Shown here piece after piece: positions 22,065 to 32,697 of a DNA stretch of 32,697 nt. The stretch is from assembly GCA_013694625.1 (NCBI GenBank), contig JACDCD010000028.1, forward strand, positions 1 through 32,697, in the 5' to 3' direction. The DNA comes from Actinomycetota bacterium. GTDB lineage: Bacteria > Actinomycetota > CADDZG01 > WHSQ01. Position 1 is the first letter of the stretch. Every line of letters starts with the position of its first letter. The translations under genes and the position numbers were made by a program. Under the pieces are notes generated by a model. That model searched no databases and was not told where the DNA came from. It worked only from the letters and a program-made list of their open reading frames with translations.

Positions 22065-23186
22065 TCAGTCGGTGGCGCGCCGCCCGCCCGGGCCCGAGAC
22101 GGCCGCCGATCCGGTTGCCGCGGCACCACCCTCGCCCGCCCGCTGTTGGTGGAAGCTCGCCCTGGGATCGCGCGCCGAGGCCTTGCCCGCGTAGAAAGTG
22201 GCGAACCGGATCCCCAGTGCTCCCGCCGTTCCGCATGCGCCGCTCGCTAAGCGGAGGGCGCGTCCGTGGCGCGGCCACAGGTTGAGGGCCAGGCTCGCCA
22301 CCGTAAAGACCTTCGAGGCCCGCCACAGTCCGCCCGACACACCCTCTCTGTAGGGCCGGCCGACCTGCTTCACCTCCGAGACGTCGCGCTCGACGGCGGC
22401 GGTCGCGACCAGCTCGGCCACCTGACCCGCCACCTCGAAGCGCCTAACGATCCTCTCCTCGGTATCGTTCAGGTCGGCAAGACCGAGCAGCGACCCGGCG
22501 GCTGACATCGCCGAGCCGATGAACAGCCACGGCAGCGACCGCCTCGACGCCTGCCACACCGGCACGGCGGTGTTTGTCAGGAGCACGGCCGTATACCCCG
22601 CCAGGGGCATTCCGAGAAATCCGGCCACTTTACCGAGAAGGTTCCCGAGGTGGCCCGGCAGCCCGCCTGCGTGCGGCAGGACGGCCGAAGCGGCAAACAC
22701 TGGGGTAGCAGCGGCGAGGGTCCACGATCCAACGCTCATGGCGGAAGTCGGCCTGAACACCCTCAGCATGTTGAGAAAGCGCTCCGGCCGGCCGAGGTCG
22801 TATATCAGCAACGCTGTGCCGATCCCCCCGCCGGCCGCCCCGATGCGCCTTGCCTTGCGCACCAGACCGTCCGTCTCACCCCGCGTCAGCGATTCCGCCA
22901 CTTCGGCGAGCAGTGAGGCGGCGCCGGCCGTCCCACCCACGTAGAAGTATGCAGGGACGGCCCAGATCCACACCGGCTCCTTCAGAACCGGGCGGTCATA
23001 GTAGGTCGCGTCGGCTCCAGAGGAGGTGGCACTAGGCAATCTGTCCCATACGCCGACCGCCTGGAGAGCCTCGGGGGCCTCGCCCCCGGCCCGTTGCCCC
23101 GACCCTTCGCCCGACAGGTCGGCGCGCCGGAGATCGATGTGACGCGCCTCGGCCCCGGCGTCCCGCTCGTCCCGGCCCGGACTCAT
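22065..23186 (-). CDS. NrfD/PsrC-type membrane subunit of formate dehydrogenase
   Basis: This integral membrane subunit of the NrfD/polysulfide reductase C family passes electrons from the iron-sulfur subunit to quinone. It has 373 aa with about eight hydrophobic helices; WIWAVPAYFYVGGTAGA is the typical first helix and IYDLGRPERFLNM the conserved loop. A hydrophilic N-terminal extension of about 65 residues before the first helix (residues 1-65) is unusual. The ATG at 23186 overlaps the beta-subunit stop (ATGA), so an 84-base longer frame is rejected. This type of anchor replaces the diheme cytochrome b (FdnI) of E. coli enzymes. It is the last gene of the respiratory block. Confidence 0.85.
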   Translation of the reverse strand: MSPGRDERDAGAEARHIDLRRADLSGEGSGQRAGGEAPEALQAVGVWDRLPSATSSGADATYYDRPVLKEPVWIWAVPAYFYVGGTAGAASLLAEVAESLTRGETDGLVRKARRIGAAGGGIGTALLIYDLGRPERFLNMLRVFRPTSAMSVGSWTLAAATPVFAASAVLPHAGGLPGHLGNLLGKVAGFLGMPLAGYTAVLLTNTAVPVWQASRRSLPWLFIGSAMSAAGSLLGLADLNDTEERIVRRFEVAGQVAELVATAAVERDVSEVKQVGRPYREGVSGGLWRASKVFTVASLALNLWPRHGRALRLASGACGTAGALGIRFATFYAGKASARDPRASFHQQRAGEGGAAATGSAAVSGPGGRRATD

Positions 23187-23983
23187 GGGCGCGCGCCGGT
23201 CCTGCTCGTCAGCACGGCTCCGAATGCCGCCACCGCCATACCCAGCGCGGCCGCCGCCATGGAGCGCCATGCCTCTCCCGCCTCCATCGCGGGTGCAATC
23301 GGATCCGGAGGCAGGTTGTAGACCTCCGGCTTGTCGACCAGCAGGAAGAACGCGTTGAGTCCGCCGGTGCCCGGCTGGTTGCCGGCGTCAGCGCCGTACA
23401 GGTAAGCCTCGGTCATGCCGCGTGAATGCAGTTGCTCAACGCGCTTCTCGGCCTGGGCTTGCAGATCGTTGAGCTCGCCGAAGACGATGGACTCCGTTGG
23501 ACACGCCTGGGCGCACGCGGGAGTCATGCCGTCCTGCAACCGGTCGTAGCACAACGTGCACTTCCACGCCCTCCCGTCCTCCTCCCGGCGGTCGATAACT
23601 CCGAACGGGCAGCCAGAGATGCAGTACCCACATCCGTTGCAGATGTCGGGCTGGACGTAAACGCTGTCGAATTCGGTACGCACGATCGCACCCGTGGGGC
23701 ATGCTTCGAGACAACCTGCCCGCTTGCAGTGCTTGCACACATCCGACATCATGAGCCACGACAAATTTCCCATCCCCGTGACCTGTCCGCCAAGTGGCGC
23801 CGGCCGTTCAACGAACGCCACGTGTCGCCAGGTCGATGCACCGACATCGATTGTGTTGTCCAACGACATGCCGGTGAAGAACAGACCGTCGTCCGGTAGT
23901 TGATTCCACTGCTTGCACGCCACCTCGCAGGCCTTGCATCCGATGCATACGGTGGTATCGGTGAAGAACCCTTTCGGACTCAT
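23183..23983 (-). CDS. Formate dehydrogenase beta (iron-sulfur) subunit
   Basis: This electron-transfer subunit is 266 aa and carries four [4Fe-4S] clusters. The first ligand set is C13, C16, C19 and C23 (CIGCKACEVAC). Further sets are in CKHCKRAGCLEAC, CNGCGYCISGC and CTLCYDRL...CAQAC. A hydrophobic helix near the C-terminus (AAAALGMAVAAFGAVL) resembles the anchor helix of FdnH/FdoH. The ATG overlaps the alpha-subunit stop by 4 bases. No Tat or Sec signal is present. It links the molybdenum or tungsten site of the alpha subunit to the NrfD-type quinone site. Confidence 0.9.
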   Translation of the reverse strand: MSPKGFFTDTTVCIGCKACEVACKQWNQLPDDGLFFTGMSLDNTIDVGASTWRHVAFVERPAPLGGQVTGMGNLSWLMMSDVCKHCKRAGCLEACPTGAIVRTEFDSVYVQPDICNGCGYCISGCPFGVIDRREEDGRAWKCTLCYDRLQDGMTPACAQACPTESIVFGELNDLQAQAEKRVEQLHSRGMTEAYLYGADAGNQPGTGGLNAFFLLVDKPEVYNLPPDPIAPAMEAGEAWRSMAAAALGMAVAAFGAVLTSRTGARP

Positions 23984-26900
23984 GAATGGGTCCTGCCCTC
24001 TGTGGCCTCACCGTTCTTGTGCCCGTGCGAAGCATCCGCAGAGCCGCGCGCGCCCGGCAGATCGCGCTCGGTCGCGTCCTCTTCGATTCGCGCCACCAGG
24101 TCACCGCTGGTGACGACCCGTCTTCCCCTGCTCCTTCGGCCCGCGACGATGTCGGCAGTAAGGGCTTTGGATTCCTGAATCGAGACATTGGGATCGCCAA
24201 CGAAGCCAATCAATTCATTCACGGTGTCGCCGGTCGAGAGGCCTTTGCTTCCCCAGTGATAGGGCAGGCCGATCTGGTGAACCGTGCGGCCCTTGAGACG
24301 CAGGGACCTGAGCCTTTCGGTCACCAGCACGCGTGCTTCGATCTCGCCTCGAGCGGTCGTTATGGTCGCCCAGCCCCCATTGCTCAAACCTCTTTCCCGC
24401 GCAAGCTCCGGCGATACCTCACAGAACATCTCGGGCTGCAGCTCTGCGAGCCACGCCACCCACCGCGACATGGCACCAGCGGTGTGGTGCTCGGTCAGCC
24501 GGTAGGTCGTGACAACAAATGGAAAGCGGGGGTCGTCGTGGGCTTTGTGGAAGGGGTTGTCCCGCCGTTTCCATTCCATGCGCGCCGGATTGCACTGTTG
24601 TTTGTACAACGGGTTCGCAACGACCGATTCCTGAGGCTCGTAGTGCGTCGGCAATGGTCCATCGAGCAGGCCGTTGGGCGCGTAGAGCCACCCCTTGCCA
24701 TCACCCTGCATGATGAACGGGTCGATTCCGGACAGCGCGTCCACACCCTGCGCCTTCGCCCCCGGCCGGTAGGAAGGTGGGCGTCCCGCCACGAAATCGA
24801 CCTGATCCAGCCCCTCCCACACCCCTCTGTCATCGTTCCACCACACCAGCTTCTTCCGCTCGGACCATGGCCTGCCGGCAGGGTCGGCCGAGGCGCGGTT
24901 GTAGAGGATCCGGCGGTTCGCCGGCCAGGCCCAGCCCCACTCGGGGGCAACCCAGGTCTGTTCGCGCCCTGCCTTGCGGCGCGCGGCCTGGTTGACCCGG
25001 TCCTTGTACGACCCCGAATAGATCCAACAACCGCACGCCGTCGTGCCGTCATCCGCGAGCTCGAGAAAGCCTCCGAGGGCCTCGCCGTCGGTCATCGTGT
25101 AGCCACTGATCTCGGCGAGGACCGCCTCTGCGCCGGGCTCGTCGTGTTCGCCTTCGGTTGGGTAGTCCCAGGTCAGGTCCCGAATCGCGCGGTCCTTGGG
25201 ATCCGCTGAATCGGCATAGAGCCGTTTGAGCCGCCGGCCCAGGTGATACATGAAATGCAGCTCGCTGCGCGCATCGCCCGGAGGCTGCACGGCGGTGTGA
25301 TGCCATTGCAACAGGCGCTGCGTGTTGGTGAAGCTGCCTTCCTTCTCGGTATGCGCTGCACAGGGAAAGAAGAACACCTCCGTCTTGATGTCCTGCGTCC
25401 TGATCTCTCCCCGTTTGATCTCGGGGGCGTCCTGCCAGAAGTCCGCCGTCTCGGTAACTGCGAAGTCGCGCACCACGAGCCAGTCGAGCTCCCTGAGGCC
25501 CTTTCGATGCAGGGCCCCGTGCATCGAACCTACTGTCGGGTTTTCTCCCATCACGAAATAGCCCTTCAGCTTCCCATCGGCCATTTCGGCGACCGTGCTC
25601 ATATGCGAGTGATCGCCGGTCAGGCGCGGTAGATAGTCGTAGCAATAGTCGTTGTTCTCATTGGCAGCAACGCCGTACCACGCCTTCAGCAACGACACGA
25701 AATACTTGGGAAGGTTGCTCCACCATCCGGTTGGCGCCGTGTTGCCATCGATGTAGCTCGGCAGATCCGGATGCGGTCCGGCCTTGGGCATCGGCATATA
25801 GCCGGGCAGGAGGTTGTACAGGGTGGGGATGTCCGTTGAACCTTGGATTGAGGCGTGTCCCCGTAGCGCAAGTATCCCGCCCCCCGGTCTGCCTATGTTG
25901 CCCAGGAGCAGTTGAACAATGCTCGCGGCGCGGATGTACTGCGCACCCACCGAATGCTGTGTCCAGCCCACGGCATAGCAAATCGCCGAGGTCCTCTCCC
26001 GCCCCGAGTTGTCGCACAGAGTCTTGGCCACGGCAAGGAATTGATCCTCCGGTATCCCGCAGGTGGCATCCACCATTTCCGGCGTGTAACGCGAGTAGTG
26101 GCGCTTGAGGATCTGAAACACGCAGCGAGGGTCTTGAAGGCTCTCATCCTGCCGTTCATTCGCCCGTTCGGTCTTCCGCTCCCCGGCCGCTCCGAAACGC
26201 CCACTCCCCCCGGGCATGGGGGACACGTCGAAGCCCTCGTACTGCCACGAGTCGACGTCGTATCCCCCGTCGTCGGGATTCCAGCCGCTGAAGAACCCAT
26301 GGAGATCCTCTGTGTCCTGGAATTCCTCGGACACTATCTTCGAGGCGTTGGTGTAGTTGACGACGTACTCCGGAAAGTAGCGGTCGGTGGAGATTATGTA
26401 GTTGATCAGACCGCCCAGGAAGGCGATATCGCTGCCCGCCCGTATCGGCACGTGAATGTCCGCCACTGCGCTGGTACGGGTAAAGCGAGGATCGATGTGA
26501 ATGAGCTTTGCACCGCGCCTCTTGGCCTCCATCGGCCAGTGGAACCCGACGGGATGGCACTCCGCCATGTTTGACCCGATGATGACGACGCAGTCAGAGT
26601 TCTGTAGATCCTGCTGGAAAGTTGTGGCCCCTCCCCGGCCGAACGAGGTCCCCAGACCGGGGACGGTGGACGAGTGTCATATGCGAGCCTGATTCTCGAT
26701 CTGGATCGCGCCCAGAGCGGTGAACAGTTTCTTGATCAGGTAGTTCTCTTCGTTGTCGAGCGTCGCGCCCCCCAGATGGGCGATGCCCATCGTGCGGTTC
26801 AGCGGCGTCCCGTCCTCTGTGGCCGCCTCCCAGGTGGAGTCGCGCACCGACTTCACGCGGGCGGCGATCATGTCCATGGCTTCCTCGAGGGGGATGGTCT

Positions 26901-27255
26901 TCCACTCGGTGCCGTGCGGGGCGCGGTAGAGAACGTTGTGAAGCCGATGGGATCCGGTCACAAGCCCGAACGTTGCGGCGCCCTTCGGGCAAAGCCGCCC
27001 CTCTGAGATCGGCGAATCGGGATCACCCTCTATATCGGTGATCTTGTCGCCGATCGTGTAGACGAGCTGCCCGCATCCGACGGCGCAGTAGGGGCACACT
27101 GACTTGGTGACACCATCGGCCTGTCTGATGCGCGGAGCGAGCTCCTTGGTCCGGGTCGAATAAGCCGTCTCGCCCAGAGCGAACAGATCCTTGTGCTTCA
27201 ACTGCTTCAAGACCGGCCATCCGGTCGCCGATCTGACCATGTCCCGCATCCCCAC
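23980..27255 (-). CDS. Formate dehydrogenase alpha subunit, selenocysteine-containing
   Basis: This is the catalytic molybdopterin (Mo or W) subunit that oxidises formate to CO2, 1091 aa including one selenocysteine. A [4Fe-4S] site is formed by C54, C57, C61 and C89. The frame then meets TGA at 26679-26677 (residue 193) within QARI-U-HSSTV, the exact position of the Sec/Cys ligand of the metal. Reading continues in frame through GTSFGRG and AECHPVGFHW to the C-terminal dinucleotide-binding domain. A SECIS hairpin follows the TGA. The GTG at 27255 has AGAGGAGG 7 bases upstream; a longer frame to 27300 and an ATG at 27249 are less likely. No twin-arginine signal is present, so a cytoplasmic site is inferred. 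The beta subunit overlaps by 4 bases. Confidence 0.93.
26648..26664 (-). promoter_or_regulatory. SECIS element for selenocysteine insertion
   Basis: On the minus strand GTCCCC-GGTCT-GGGGAC forms a perfect 6-bp stem with a GGTCT loop. The stem begins 12 bases after the in-frame TGA (26679-26677). The bacterial SelB recognition hairpin has a GGUC-containing loop at such a distance. The hairpin is inside the coding sequence and encodes VPGLGT, so its conservation serves both roles. Confidence 0.88.
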
Positions 27256-27365: not shown

Positions 27366-28832
27366 TCACCCACGTGGCGCGTGGGCATCCTCGGCCGGCG
27401 CGCCCAGCCCGTTACCTGCGGGACCATCGCCCGCATGGCCGTCTCCTGTGTGAGCCTTCCCTTCGTGGACCCGTGAGCCGTGGCCGTCGGCGGAGGCTCC
27501 GTTGGTGAGGGCGGCAAGAGGCATCTCGGAGAGGTGCCCGGCGCCGCTTGCGGTGAGGGCCTTCATGAGACGGTAGGTCCCCCAACCGACCAGAGGGGGC
27601 ATGATCAATATCAGGATCCGGAAGACCAGGGTGATCCCGAAGATGGACGCGCCGAGCCACTTGGCGATCAAGTCGTTGCTGGCTGCAACGAACATGACCG
27701 TATAGAAGGTAAGGGTTGTTGCCCCGAGGGCGGTCCTCACGGGGTGGTCGCGAGGGCGGTCCAACAGGTGATGCGCCTCCTTGTCGTGAGCGAAGTGTTG
27801 CTCCAAGAAGGGCCACGCCAACAGCAGTGTGAAGGTCACGCCCGGAAGCAGGACCGCGGGAAAGAAGGGGTTGGGTATCTCGTAGCCGAACAACCGCACG
27901 TCGAATGCGGGGACCAGGCGGAGGGCGCCTTCAACCCACCCCAGGTACCAGTCCGGCTGCGCCGGCGAAGTTACCTGCTGCGGCTCGAACGGGCCATAGA
28001 GCCACACCGGATTTATCTGAGCGAGTCCGCCCATTACGCATAACACCGCCGACACAGCGAAGAAGAGCCCCACGGACTTGGCTGCGTAGGAAGGCCATAG
28101 TCGCGAGCCGACAACGTTGCCCTCGGTCCTGCCGGGCTCCCGGAACTGCGTGTGCTTCTGACGCCACACCACAGCAAGGTGAACGGTAAGCAGGCCGATG
28201 ATCAGCGCCGGCACGATCATGATATGGACGACGAACAGGCGCCCGATGATCTCGTCGGCCGGAAACTCCCCTCCGAAAAGCAGAAAAGCCATCCAGGTGC
28301 CGACCAGAGGCACCGAGAGCGCAATCGAATACGCAATGCGCAGGCCGGTCCCCGACAGCAGATCATCGGGGAGCGAGTAGCCGCTGAATCCGTTGAAGAT
28401 CGCCAATATCAAGAGCAGGACCCCGATGATCCAGTTGATCTCGCGCGGCCGGCGGAACGCGCCCGTGAAGAACACGCGGCAGAGGTGAACCACGATCGAA
28501 CCGATGAACACCAGCGCCGCCCAGTGGTGTATCTGGCGCATGACCAGGCCGGCGCGCACATCGAAGCTTAGCTCCAGCACCGAACGGTACGCGTCGGACA
28601 CCTCTACTCCGTTGAGTGGTTCGTAGGCTCCGCGATAGACCGAGTGGCTGGTGCTGGCGTCGAAGAAGAACGTAAGGAAGGTTCCGGTGAGCAAGAGGAC
28701 TATGAACGAGTAGAGAGCGATCTCTCCGATCATGAACGACCAGTGATCGGGAAACACCTTGGTCAGGGCTTTCTGCACGAAGGCGGAGGTGCCGAGCCTG
28801 GTGTCGAACCAACCAGCCGTTTGTCTAAGCAC
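27366..28832 (-). CDS. qcrB: Cytochrome bc1 complex cytochrome b subunit
   Basis: This is the quinol-oxidising cytochrome b, 488 aa, with eight hydrophobic helices in one polypeptide. Haem ligands are H102 and H116 in one helix and H203 and H218 in another; the second pair is 15 apart, as in b6f-type and actinobacterial proteins. The Qo-site motif is PDWY at 292-295. A hydrophilic Gly/His-rich tail of about 50 residues follows the last helix. The start is GTG and overlaps the qcrA stop by 8 bases. It passes electrons via QcrA and QcrC to the aa3 oxidase encoded upstream in the same transcript direction. Confidence 0.93.
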   Translation of the reverse strand: MLRQTAGWFDTRLGTSAFVQKALTKVFPDHWSFMIGEIALYSFIVLLLTGTFLTFFFDASTSHSVYRGAYEPLNGVEVSDAYRSVLELSFDVRAGLVMRQIHHWAALVFIGSIVVHLCRVFFTGAFRRPREINWIIGVLLLILAIFNGFSGYSLPDDLLSGTGLRIAYSIALSVPLVGTWMAFLLFGGEFPADEIIGRLFVVHIMIVPALIIGLLTVHLAVVWRQKHTQFREPGRTEGNVVGSRLWPSYAAKSVGLFFAVSAVLCVMGGLAQINPVWLYGPFEPQQVTSPAQPDWYLGWVEGALRLVPAFDVRLFGYEIPNPFFPAVLLPGVTFTLLLAWPFLEQHFAHDKEAHHLLDRPRDHPVRTALGATTLTFYTVMFVAASNDLIAKWLGASIFGITLVFRILILIMPPLVGWGTYRLMKALTASGAGHLSEMPLAALTNGASADGHGSRVHEGKAHTGDGHAGDGPAGNGLGAPAEDAHAPRG

Positions 28833-29685
28833 GTGGGCGACTCCAGTATCCGGGACCGATGGGCTCAGAATAGTCGCCGCCGGCGGCGATGTAGCCCTCG
28901 GTGTCTATTCGAAGCGGCAACTGAGGTAGTGGACGCGTGGCGGGCCCGGCGATCGGAGCGGCTGCTTCCAGGACGTCGAAGATGGACTGATGGCAGGGAC
29001 AGAAGAGACGGTGATCGGCCGGCTGATAGAGGCCGACGGGGCAGCCCGCGTGGGTGCATACCTTGGAGAAGGCCACGAAGTCCTCCGGCGCCCAGCCCTC
29101 CCGGTCCGAGGTGACCGGCCGGTAGGTCCCCGGCGAAAGGTGGATGAGCAGCGTCTGTGCATCGGCCGCGTCCGGGTGCCCGTCGGGAAAAACGGTGAGC
29201 ACGCCCCCGATGGCGAGTTCCTCGGGCCGCACGGGCTCTCCGTCGATCGTCACCGCCCGGATGCCGTCGGCCCAGGGGGTGACCACCAGAGATGTGCCGG
29301 GCGCCGAACCCAGCGAGCGGATGGGAAACAGCGCAGCCAATCCGAGCGCGCCCAGAGCGGCTCCGAGAGCCTTGCCGAGGAAGCTCCGCCGCTGAACCTC
29401 CTCTTCGCCCCGCTCGAACAGACGGACGGCTGCATCACTCTGGAGGGTCCCGCCCATCTCGGTATCGCGTTGCTCGACGTAACCTCCGCCGGGCATCAGA
29501 TCCTGGGCCCATCGCACCAGTCCCACGGCCAGACCCCCGAGCGCAACCCCCAGCAGCAGCCCTTCGAGCTGTGGCTGGCCCCCGAATGCGTAAACAACGG
29601 TAAGGCCGATCGACGATAGGGCGCTGAGGCCGAAAGCCAGCGCGACACCGCTGCCCGGCGGTGAGGTGCGCGGTCCTCTGCTCAC
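28825..29685 (-). CDS. qcrA: Cytochrome bc1 complex Rieske iron-sulfur subunit
   Basis: This 286-aa membrane-anchored Rieske protein has two hydrophobic segments near the N-terminus (about 12-35 and 41-60) and a third at about 101-122 preceded by RRSF. That three-helix arrangement is typical of actinobacterial QcrA. The [2Fe-2S] ligands are in C210-T-H-A-G-C and C229-P-C-H232; the extra cysteines form the usual disulfide. The cluster domain is extracytoplasmic. The GTG start lies 9 bases after the qcrC stop, and the stop lies within the qcrB start. Confidence 0.92.
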   Translation of the reverse strand: MSRGPRTSPPGSGVALAFGLSALSSIGLTVVYAFGGQPQLEGLLLGVALGGLAVGLVRWAQDLMPGGGYVEQRDTEMGGTLQSDAAVRLFERGEEEVQRRSFLGKALGAALGALGLAALFPIRSLGSAPGTSLVVTPWADGIRAVTIDGEPVRPEELAIGGVLTVFPDGHPDAADAQTLLIHLSPGTYRPVTSDREGWAPEDFVAFSKVCTHAGCPVGLYQPADHRLFCPCHQSIFDVLEAAAPIAGPATRPLPQLPLRIDTEGYIAAGGDYSEPIGPGYWSRPRA

Positions 29686-29694
29686 GTTGTCAGA

Positions 29695-30501
29695 TCACTC
29701 CTCGCCCACACGCGTCCCAATCAACCTGACGATCACGAGGGCTGCGCCAACCCCCACCAGCCAGCCGATCGCGCCCTCGGTGACGGGACCGACGTGACCC
29801 AGGGGCAGCCCACCTCGATCGTCCGGCCTCTGGAGATGGCTCAGGTACCTCACGATTGAGTTGACCTCCATGTCGGAGAAGGTCTCGCTTCCGAACACCG
29901 GCATCGTACCCGGCCCCACCTTCATCGCCTCTGCGGTCTGCACCGGTGTGGACCGAATGAGGGAGGGGGCGATGAGGGTCTCATCGAAGGGGTCGGGCCC
30001 CGCCGCCAGAGCTCCCCCGACTCCGGTCGTCGAGTGGCATGCCGCACAGTTCTCCTGATACAGCTCGAGTCCGAGGGCAAGGTCCCCCGCTTCGGAATCG
30101 ACCACGGGCACGGGAGGGCCCTCTCCCCCAAAAGCGCTCACGTAAGCCACGAGGTCCTCGATCTCGGCCGGATTGTAGGACGGGGGGGAAAGCCGGGTGG
30201 GTTCAGAGGGATCGTTGATCGGCATCCGCCCCGTCGAGAGCATGAAGTCGGTCATCGCCGCGCCGTTCGTGCCGCTGATGAGGTCGGGTCCCCGGCCGGT
30301 CCCCGAGCCGTCGGTCGCGTGGCACCATGCACAATCCCGCAGATAGAGCACGCGGCCACGTTCGGGGCCGTCGGCCACGGGCTCCTGAGAACGGTAGGGG
30401 CTCGTTAGGTTCGAGGTGTAGGCGCAACCTCCCAGTGCAACTGCTCCGAGTGCCGTGAGCACCTTGACGGCCCATCCAGCCCGGCCCTGGACGTGCCTCA
30501 C
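29695..30501 (-). CDS. qcrC: Diheme cytochrome c subunit of the bc1 complex
   Basis: This 268-aa membrane-bound diheme cytochrome c has two haem sites, C57-AW-C60-H61 and C152-AA-C155-H156, with likely methionine ligands in GRMPIND and GTMPVFG. The N-terminal hydrophobic segment ends in LGGC (C26), so a lipoprotein signal is likely. A second hydrophobic helix lies near the C-terminus. Fused diheme cytochrome c is a hallmark of the actinobacterial bc1-aa3 supercomplex, replacing soluble cytochrome c. The GTG start overlaps the ctaG stop (GTGA). Confidence 0.92.
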   Translation of the reverse strand: MRHVQGRAGWAVKVLTALGAVALGGCAYTSNLTSPYRSQEPVADGPERGRVLYLRDCAWCHATDGSGTGRGPDLISGTNGAAMTDFMLSTGRMPINDPSEPTRLSPPSYNPAEIEDLVAYVSAFGGEGPPVPVVDSEAGDLALGLELYQENCAACHSTTGVGGALAAGPDPFDETLIAPSLIRSTPVQTAEAMKVGPGTMPVFGSETFSDMEVNSIVRYLSHLQRPDDRGGLPLGHVGPVTEGAIGWLVGVGAALVIVRLIGTRVGEE

Positions 30502-31391
30502 GGACGTCGGCCGGCGGGCAGTAGCGCAACCTTGCGGGCGTCGGTTTCGGCCGCACCTTTATCCATGGCTCGCAACCATCTCGTAAAGAGAAGCGACATG
30601 CTGGCAAGATAGACGACTCCGGCGGGGATCCACATAATCACTCCGGCCAACTGCTGATCCTGAAGTGCGCTCAGGCCCCAGGCGCGGGCCCCGGCCGCAT
30701 GAACCGAATAGAGGGGCACCGAGGCGAAGGTCAGAAGTGCGCCCAGTCCACCGCTCTGCAGCGTGGTTACGAAGACGTATCCGAGCCGGGCGGGATAAGG
30801 CAGGCGCGGCCGGCCGAACGAGATGATCAAAGACCAGAACAGCAACGCGGTGAAAAAGAAACTCAGGTGCTCGACGGCGTGCAGCCCCTGAGAGCGCAGC
30901 GCTGCTTCGTACAGCGCCGGAAGGTGCCATGCCCACAGAGCGCCGACGTGAACGATCCACACCACCAGCGGGCCGGTTAGCACCGCCCAGAACGCCGAGG
31001 CCTTAGAGGTGCGCCCCAGAGCATGGAGATCGCGACGCAAGCTACGGGGCAAGGCCAGCGAGCACGGAAGGAACGGTGCGCCCAAGACCAGCAGCGGGGC
31101 CGCCACAAGCACAAGAATCAGATGCTGCACCATGTGAGCGGCGAACAGCGTGTGCCCCAGCGATGCAATCGGGGACACCAACGCAACCGCAAGGGCCACG
31201 AGGCCGGCGGAGAAGGCGAACACCTGCGCGGGCCCGACTCCACGCCCGCGGCCCTTGGTCCACAGACGGTGAACACCGTACCCGTAGGCCCACGCCGCCA
31301 ACAGCAACGAAACCAGCACCACCGGATCGAGGGTCCATGCAGCGACAACCCCTCCCGGCTCGATGGGGGGAGCGAGGGCGACCGGCCTCAC
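30498..31391 (-). CDS. ctaG: CtaG (caa3-type) cytochrome oxidase assembly protein
   Basis: This membrane protein has 297 aa with about seven hydrophobic helices and belongs to the CtaG_Caa3 family. Histidine motifs match the paralog at 3230-4066: AHMVQHLIL, LWAWHLPALYE, LHAVEHLSF and LQDQQLAGVIM. Being inside the oxidase operon, it is most likely the assembly factor of this aa3 oxidase. The open frame extends to 31493, but the GTG at 31391 overlaps the upstream stop (GTGA) and starts just before the first membrane-facing stretch, so it is preferred. Confidence 0.88.
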   Translation of the reverse strand: MRPVALAPPIEPGGVVAAWTLDPVVLVSLLLAAWAYGYGVHRLWTKGRGRGVGPAQVFAFSAGLVALAVALVSPIASLGHTLFAAHMVQHLILVLVAAPLLVLGAPFLPCSLALPRSLRRDLHALGRTSKASAFWAVLTGPLVVWIVHVGALWAWHLPALYEAALRSQGLHAVEHLSFFFTALLFWSLIISFGRPRLPYPARLGYVFVTTLQSGGLGALLTFASVPLYSVHAAGARAWGLSALQDQQLAGVIMWIPAGVVYLASMSLLFTRWLRAMDKGAAETDARKVALLPAGRRP

Positions 31392-31771
31392 GCGCCCACC
31401 TGACAGGACGACAGAAACAAGCTCGGCAGAAACCCCTGGAAGATCGCGATCACAAAGAAGATGCTGGTGAGCACCCCTGCACGAGCCATCCATGATGCGC
31501 GCCTGCCGTTCGTGTCGTCACGCCCGGATGCCGCTCGCAGGCAGCGCCAGGACATCACGCCGGCGAGAATCGTGATCGCAAAGCAAACCGCGGATACGGC
31601 GAGGACGACCGGCTCTACCACACCGGGGGCCGATGCGCCGGGCGAGCACGCGATCTCATCGAGCTCCGAGCCGATGAGAGTCTGGATGCTCCACCCCACG
31701 GGACCGCCCAGAACCCCGAACCACAGCCATCCTGATCCCCGGGCCTCGGACTTCGTCACCTGAGTCGCCAC
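31388..31771 (-). CDS. Small integral membrane protein of the oxidase operon, unknown function
   Basis: This 127-aa protein has three predicted hydrophobic helices: around residues 14-35 (GWLWFGVLGGPVGW), 52-72 (PVVLAVSAVCFAITILAG) and 96-118 (GVLTSIFFVIAIFQGFL). I recognise no named family. It lies between ctaE and ctaG, overlaps ctaG by 4 bases and begins 33 bases after ctaE. That makes an accessory or assembly role for the oxidase likely. The start is GTG with AGAGGGGG 13 bases upstream. Cysteines in IACSPG, VCFAI and SSCQVGA are present but form no known metal motif. Confidence 0.78.
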   Translation of the reverse strand: MATQVTKSEARGSGWLWFGVLGGPVGWSIQTLIGSELDEIACSPGASAPGVVEPVVLAVSAVCFAITILAGVMSWRCLRAASGRDDTNGRRASWMARAGVLTSIFFVIAIFQGFLPSLFLSSCQVGA

Positions 31772-31804
31772 TGAGCTGTCTCAACCCCCTCTAACAGACA
31801 AGGA

Positions 31805-32440
31805 CTAGGCGTTCGGAAAGAGATAGATGGTCGAAAGGACGAACAGCCAAACGACGTCCACGAAATGCCAGTACATGGTGAAATTCTGCACCGTGACATG
31901 GCGCTCCGAATCGAACGCCCCCTTCCATGCACGCACCTGCGTCCACAGGCTGAACAACAAACCAACCAGGACGTGGATGCCGTGGAAGCCGGTGATCGTA
32001 TAGAACAGCGACCCGTACGAGTTGGTGGTCGGCGTGAACTCCGCCAACGTCTCCGGGTACTCCAGGCCCAGCTGCATAGCGAGGAAAGACGCGCCCAGCA
32101 CGAAGCCGAGCGCAAGACCGAGCCTCAGGCGTCGCTGGTTTCCCTTCATGATGGCCCGCTCGGCAAAGTGGACCGGGATGCTGCTCGACCACAGGATCGC
32201 AGTCATGATGAGCGGGAGCTCCAGGGTGGGTGGTTCGATACCGTCTGGCGGCCACTCCGGGCCGAGCTGATACCGCAGATAGAAGTAGCTCGCGATGAGC
32301 GCGGAAAAGAGCATGGTCTCGGTGCAGATCAGCATGACCATGCCCCACCAGCCCGTGGACCTCGGGCCCGCGACGTGACGCGATAGGACGGCTTCCCGTG
32401 AGGCTGCTTCGGGCGGGTTGGTCGTCTCGAGGACGCTCAT
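31805..32440 (-). CDS. ctaE: Cytochrome c oxidase subunit III
   Basis: This 211-aa membrane subunit of the aa3-type oxidase has five hydrophobic helices. Family motifs are TETMLFSALIASYFYLRY, TGFHGIHVLVGL and MYWHFVDVVWLFVLSTIYL, the last containing the conserved His and Trp of subunit III. The ATG at 32440 overlaps the ctaD stop (ATGA), so a longer frame to 32584 is rejected. It is followed by the small membrane protein gene. Confidence 0.93.
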   Translation of the reverse strand: MSVLETTNPPEAASREAVLSRHVAGPRSTGWWGMVMLICTETMLFSALIASYFYLRYQLGPEWPPDGIEPPTLELPLIMTAILWSSSIPVHFAERAIMKGNQRRLRLGLALGFVLGASFLAMQLGLEYPETLAEFTPTTNSYGSLFYTITGFHGIHVLVGLLFSLWTQVRAWKGAFDSERHVTVQNFTMYWHFVDVVWLFVLSTIYLFPNA

Positions 32441-32697
32441 GTTTCCTGCGTCTCGCCTCTGGGCCAGAACCATCCGATCAAGCCGCCGGCGCCGCCCAGC
32501 GCGCCCAGTGCCGCCAGCGCATACGCGTCGAGAAGGATTCCGTAGAACATCACCGCGAGGGCGGCGGCCAACAACACCGGCCATGGGCTCTCGTGGGGCA
32601 TCTCCAGGACGGCCTGCGGCTGGGCGTCGAGAAGGCTCGTGGCCAAGGTCTCATGGCCCCCGGCCAAGGCGTAGCCACCCATGTCCGGAGATTGCGG
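32437..32697 (-). CDS. ctaD: C-terminal end of cytochrome c oxidase subunit I (cut by window edge)
   Basis: The frame is open to the window edge (87 codons with stop). An ATG at 32682 exists, but upstream codons continue as PQSPD and the sequence HETLATSLLDAQPQAVLEMP followed by two hydrophobic helices resembles the C-terminal extension of ctaD proteins fused to a subunit-IV-like part in actinobacteria. I therefore read it as the end of ctaD and not as an 81-aa separate gene. A stand-alone subunit IV is the alternative. The stop overlaps ctaE by 4 bases. Confidence 0.65.
   Translation of the reverse strand, partial: PQSPDMGGYALAGGHETLATSLLDAQPQAVLEMPHESPWPVLLAAALAVMFYGILLDAYALAALGALGGAGGLIGWFWPRGETQET

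Follow-up and report, generated by a model that had tools for sequence, protein, structure and literature searches.

A formate dehydrogenase gene with an in-frame UGA at its catalytic residue in an actinobacterial draft genome

Formate dehydrogenase-N (FDH-N) of E. coli and FdhAB of Desulfovibrio both carry a twin-arginine export signal and do not face the cytoplasm, and the membrane subunit of FDH-N is a cytochrome b gamma subunit. By one account (PMC13188914), no bacterial selenoprotein family is more widely distributed than FdhA. A variant form of selenocysteine (Sec) decoding, in which UAG is read by a tRNA-Sec with a CUA anticodon, has been published for AhpC of Blastococcus saxobsidens (PMC5330540).

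The stretch of DNA analyzed here (the window, 32,697 nucleotides) comes from the draft genome of an actinobacterium and carries a formate dehydrogenase gene, fdhA, whose frame is interrupted by a TGA. Its product is homologous over residues 49-1036 to Desulfovibrio FdhAB (PDB 8cm4, 1h0h) and to E. coli FDH-N (PDB 1kqf), and an alignment with the structures puts the interrupted codon, residue 193, on the column that holds Sec (printed as X) in 1h0h and 8cm4, in the shared motif QARI-U-HS. We are close to certain, from sequence comparison, that this is an intact gene for a UGA-decoded respiratory FdhA selenoenzyme. The relevant features of the window are as follows.

23980..27255, minus strand: fdhA, formate dehydrogenase-N type alpha subunit, with a single in-frame TGA; matches NF041513 and TIGR01553, 59-72% identity to 80 relatives
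26677..26679, minus strand: in-frame TGA, probably read as selenocysteine, judging from codon usage in 80 relatives and the aligned Sec in PDB 1h0h and 8cm4
26648..26664, minus strand: putative bacterial SECIS hairpin, 6-bp stem, GGTCT loop; full stem in 69/70 Sec-type and 0/9 Cys-type sequences
23183..23983, minus strand: fdhB, iron-sulfur (beta) subunit; best NCBIfam match TIGR01582 FDH-beta, 194 bits, below the cut-off of 335
22065..23270, minus strand: NrfD-type membrane subunit, likely a quinone-reactive anchor; Pfam NrfD PF03916, 52 bits, above the gathering score

Reading frame and neighborhood of fdhA

Read from 27255 down to 23980, fdhA is one frame of 1,091 residues whose sole internal stop is the TGA at 26679-26677, within the motif QARI-stop-HSSTV; it probably starts at the GTG at 27255, with AGGAGG just upstream. 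The preliminary description of this DNA, made from its letters, had joined two aligned open frames across this stop, placed the stop on the catalytic Sec/Cys of the family, recognized formate dehydrogenase on both sides of it and expected an automatic caller to report two fragments. All of this is borne out, down to the fragments themselves, which a standard caller places at 27300-26677 and 26568-23980. Over nearly its whole length the read-through protein is recognized by two NCBIfam models, NF041513 (formate_DH_Act; 1847 bits, where 1400 are required) and TIGR01553 (formate dehydrogenase-N alpha; 984 bits, where 814 are required), and it contains the Pfam domains Molybdop_Fe4S4, Molybdopterin and Molydop_binding, with CPYCAVGC as its N-terminal Fe4S4 cysteine motif. 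A 407-codon open frame also runs antisense within fdhA (23986-25209, plus strand), and is likely a shadow frame of this G+C-rich coding sequence.

The 77 residues of FdhA up to CPYCAVGC hold no twin-arginine (RR) motif, unlike E. coli FDH-N and Desulfovibrio FdhAB, and a typical motif is also absent from the other members of the actinobacterial-type family that we inspected. An enzyme facing the cytoplasm is therefore likely, as far as its N-terminus can tell. The membrane subunit differs too, being of NrfD type where E. coli FDH-N has its cytochrome b.

The order fdhA-fdhB-nrfD is kept in most relatives with enough flanking sequence. The genes immediately upstream of fdhA share its strand (27366-32584, minus); they are qcrB, qcrA, qcrC, a CtaG-like gene and a gene for oxidase subunit III. 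The QcrB encoded here scores 632 bits (cut-off 500) against the actinobacterial-type QcrB model, and it is this match, together with the titles of the nearest records, that places the genome among the actinobacteria. This linkage to bc1 genes is unusual: within the flanks examined, qcrB is found near fdhA in only 4 of 80 named relatives, and lies upstream on the same strand in just one of them (L083). Given the bc1 and oxidase-related genes at this position, electrons from formate may enter an aerobic chain by way of quinone.

Codon 193 and the hairpin behind it

The interrupted codon can be followed through its column in related genes. Among the 80 nearest named relatives, drawn from a species-level genome collection and 59-72% identical to the FdhA of the window, the codon is TGA in 69 (70 when the window's own gene is included), TGC in 9 and TAG in 2. 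Their record titles place these relatives in the Actinobacteria, Acidobacteria, Myxococcales and other groups, so that the stop is conserved across phyla. The closest full-length homologues in genomes of the same family also have one TGA in fdhA, and the nearest fdhA relatives are about 72-74% identical. In three genomes of our set the fdhA homologues come in several pieces with frame changes (L116 in G003, L118 in G004, and G013:C192), which are probably assembly indels. The two TAG codons belong to Blastococcus tunisiensis (L054, position 6565) and Geodermatophilus sp. TF02-6 (L064, position 6565), in keeping with the published UAG-decoded Sec in Blastococcus; the window gene differs from this decoding of the Geodermatophilaceae in using the standard UGA, with TCA as the anticodon of the tRNA-Sec.

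These counts bear on the statement, made in the preliminary description, that selenoproteins are uncommon in actinobacteria. For this family it does not stand: Sec is used at this position by the majority of the close relatives, many of which are actinobacteria by title, and in a 2006 survey (PMC1794560) Actinobacteria are one of three phyla listed as rich in selenoproteins. Among the relatives compared here, selenoproteins are not rare. It should be kept in mind that Symbiobacterium, counted among the Actinobacteria in the 2006 survey, is now classified elsewhere.

Rfam scans at the gathering threshold gave no matches in the window and none in the contig carrying selA and selB, and the SECIS element was therefore tested by comparison. 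The hairpin, GTCCCC-GGTCT-GGGGAC at 26664-26648, starts 12 bases after the TGA, and both its existence and its spacing are as had been proposed. In the window sequence alone, though, it is not remarkable: when the peptide is recoded at random with synonymous codons, 19% of the codings form the 6-bp stem and 15% fold at least as stably. Taken alone the hairpin is thus within chance, and it is convincing only through its conservation in relatives. There, 70 distinct sequences are of Sec type (with TGA or TAG), and all but one of them (69) keep the six stem pairs; of 9 Cys-type sequences none does. The counts are not independent, because the sequences are related. Sliding the partner strand by 1-3 bases lowers the pairing of the Sec-type sequences to 33-65%; two of the stem pairs show changes on both sides, including C-G to G-C; and every Sec-type sequence has GGTCT, AGTTT or AGTCT as its loop. 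The Cys-type members, in turn, have lost the conserved Pro encoded in the stem (TVP to TVA or TVV). To judge from these alignments, the contrast between Sec and Cys types is a stronger argument for a SECIS element than the raw counts.

Selenocysteine machinery in a fragmented assembly

The host genome is a draft of 2.72 Mb in 230 contigs, estimated to be 98.2% complete. The 32,697 nucleotides of the window hold no sel genes, as had been noted; those that we found lie elsewhere, with selA and selB on contig C229 and the two halves of a tRNA-Sec gene on C229 and C76. Of the full set that the host had been expected to encode, these genes are present, and selD is missing from the assembly.

C229:7759-9096: selA, 515 bits, above the curated cut-off
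C229:13525-15390: selB, 310 bits in all, above the curated cut-off, with SelB winged-helix domains (Pfam)

Searches of the host genome for an intact tRNA-Sec, whether with the tRNA-Sec model of Rfam, by pattern or with a covariance model built for the purpose, returned only other tRNAs, because contig ends cut the gene in two. The first gene of C229 is the orthologue of a gene close to tRNA-Sec in relatives; two strong tRNA-Sec matches were recorded in each of G009, G016 and G017. Read on the minus strand, bases 1-52 of C229 (L023 1-52) are a 5' tRNA-Sec half that contains the TCA anticodon loop, and the only match in the genome to a pattern for the 3' half is at the end of C76 (L189). The two contig ends overlap by exactly 20 bases, CTTCAAAACCGGTGCGCCGA, and once they are joined ARAGORN calls tRNA-SeC(tca); beyond its half of the gene, C76 matches the sequence that follows tRNA-Sec in a relative (G010). 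The complete gene depends on joining two contig ends, and the halves could in principle come from two copies. Two other members of the family, G002 (C208) and G003 (C150), likewise have their tRNA-Sec at the extreme end of a contig, which indicates that assembly breaks recur at this gene. A duplicated selC may be the reason.

No selD match above the cut-off was obtained anywhere in the host assembly, whereas all 15 other genomes of the family (15/15) have one, and most of these selD genes themselves contain an in-frame TGA. On C143, a contig of 5,029 bases that is collinear over its full length with a congener (G001) at 93.4% identity, lies a conserved member of the selD neighborhood. The end of C143 aligns with position 9281 of L164, and the selD match of the congener occupies 9590-10510 of L164, that is, 309 bases beyond. 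Since the contig stops that close to a gene found in every other genome of the family, its absence is likely an assembly gap. A selD-like match on C159 was rejected as selD (71 bits against a cut-off of 125, covering model positions 44-256 only, with a ThiD-like neighbor); it is probably ThiL.

Competing explanations and known systems

Support for the Sec reading comes from the family models, from the alignment with structures containing Sec, from the TGA, TGC and TAG codons of the column, from a SECIS element confined to Sec-type sequences and from the presence of selA, selB and tRNA-Sec. If it is correct, SelB would bind the hairpin after the UGA and bring Sec-tRNA(Sec) to codon 193, which the ribosome would read as selenocysteine, and this residue would be the predicted ligand of the metal (Mo or W) in the bis-MGD cofactor. 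FdhA, FdhB and the NrfD-type membrane protein would then presumably work in the direction of formate oxidation, with electrons passing to the quinone pool through the NrfD membrane attachment, and selD would be present in the unassembled part of the genome.

The simplest way to dispense with selenium is a sequencing or assembly error that turned a TGC or TGT into TGA, leaving an ordinary cysteine formate dehydrogenase. A fragmented draft of 230 contigs and the existence of Cys-type members (9/80) invite this thought, but an error would have to coincide with the same TGA in 69 named relatives whose sequences come from separate genome records, with a SECIS stem that is present in the window gene and lost in Cys-type members, and with a genome that has selA, selB and tRNA-Sec; we consider it extremely improbable. 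A pseudogene disabled by a nonsense mutation is what the two fragments of a standard caller would suggest, and it is just as hard to credit: the rest of the 1,091-codon frame is open and reaches 1847 bits against its family model, and the stop falls exactly on the catalytic residue, where it is conserved across phyla.

The missing selD opens two further possibilities. The gene could be a relic, a former selenoprotein gene in which UGA acts as a stop since the recent loss of selD from the lineage. The lack of a selD above cut-off in a genome 98.2% complete, when 15 of 15 other family genomes have it, speaks for such a loss; yet selA and selB are intact, fdhA shows no decay, and C143 preserves the selD neighborhood, collinear with G001, up to a contig end 309 bases before the gene, which makes a relic very unlikely. 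Highly unlikely, too, is an organism truly devoid of selD that has kept selA, selB, tRNA-Sec and the Sec enzyme, and that has another source of selenophosphate or another means of decoding UGA. An intact selenoenzyme gene in an incompletely assembled genome thus remains our reading.

On this reading the annotation is to be corrected, as the gene would otherwise be split in two or labeled a pseudogene. The case also illustrates how tRNA-Sec and selD can go unseen in a draft when they fall at contig ends, which makes a report that no sel genes were found in a fragmented genome weak evidence. Compared with known systems, fdhA shares with the NF041513 family a match over nearly the whole length and the fdhA-fdhB-nrfD order of its relatives, and only ordinary sequence divergence was found to separate them. 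The find is correct and useful for annotation, but the gene is of a well-known kind that leaves the selenoprotein picture unchanged, given that a curated NCBI model for it exists, that FdhA is widespread and that Actinobacteria were already listed as selenoprotein-rich in 2006.
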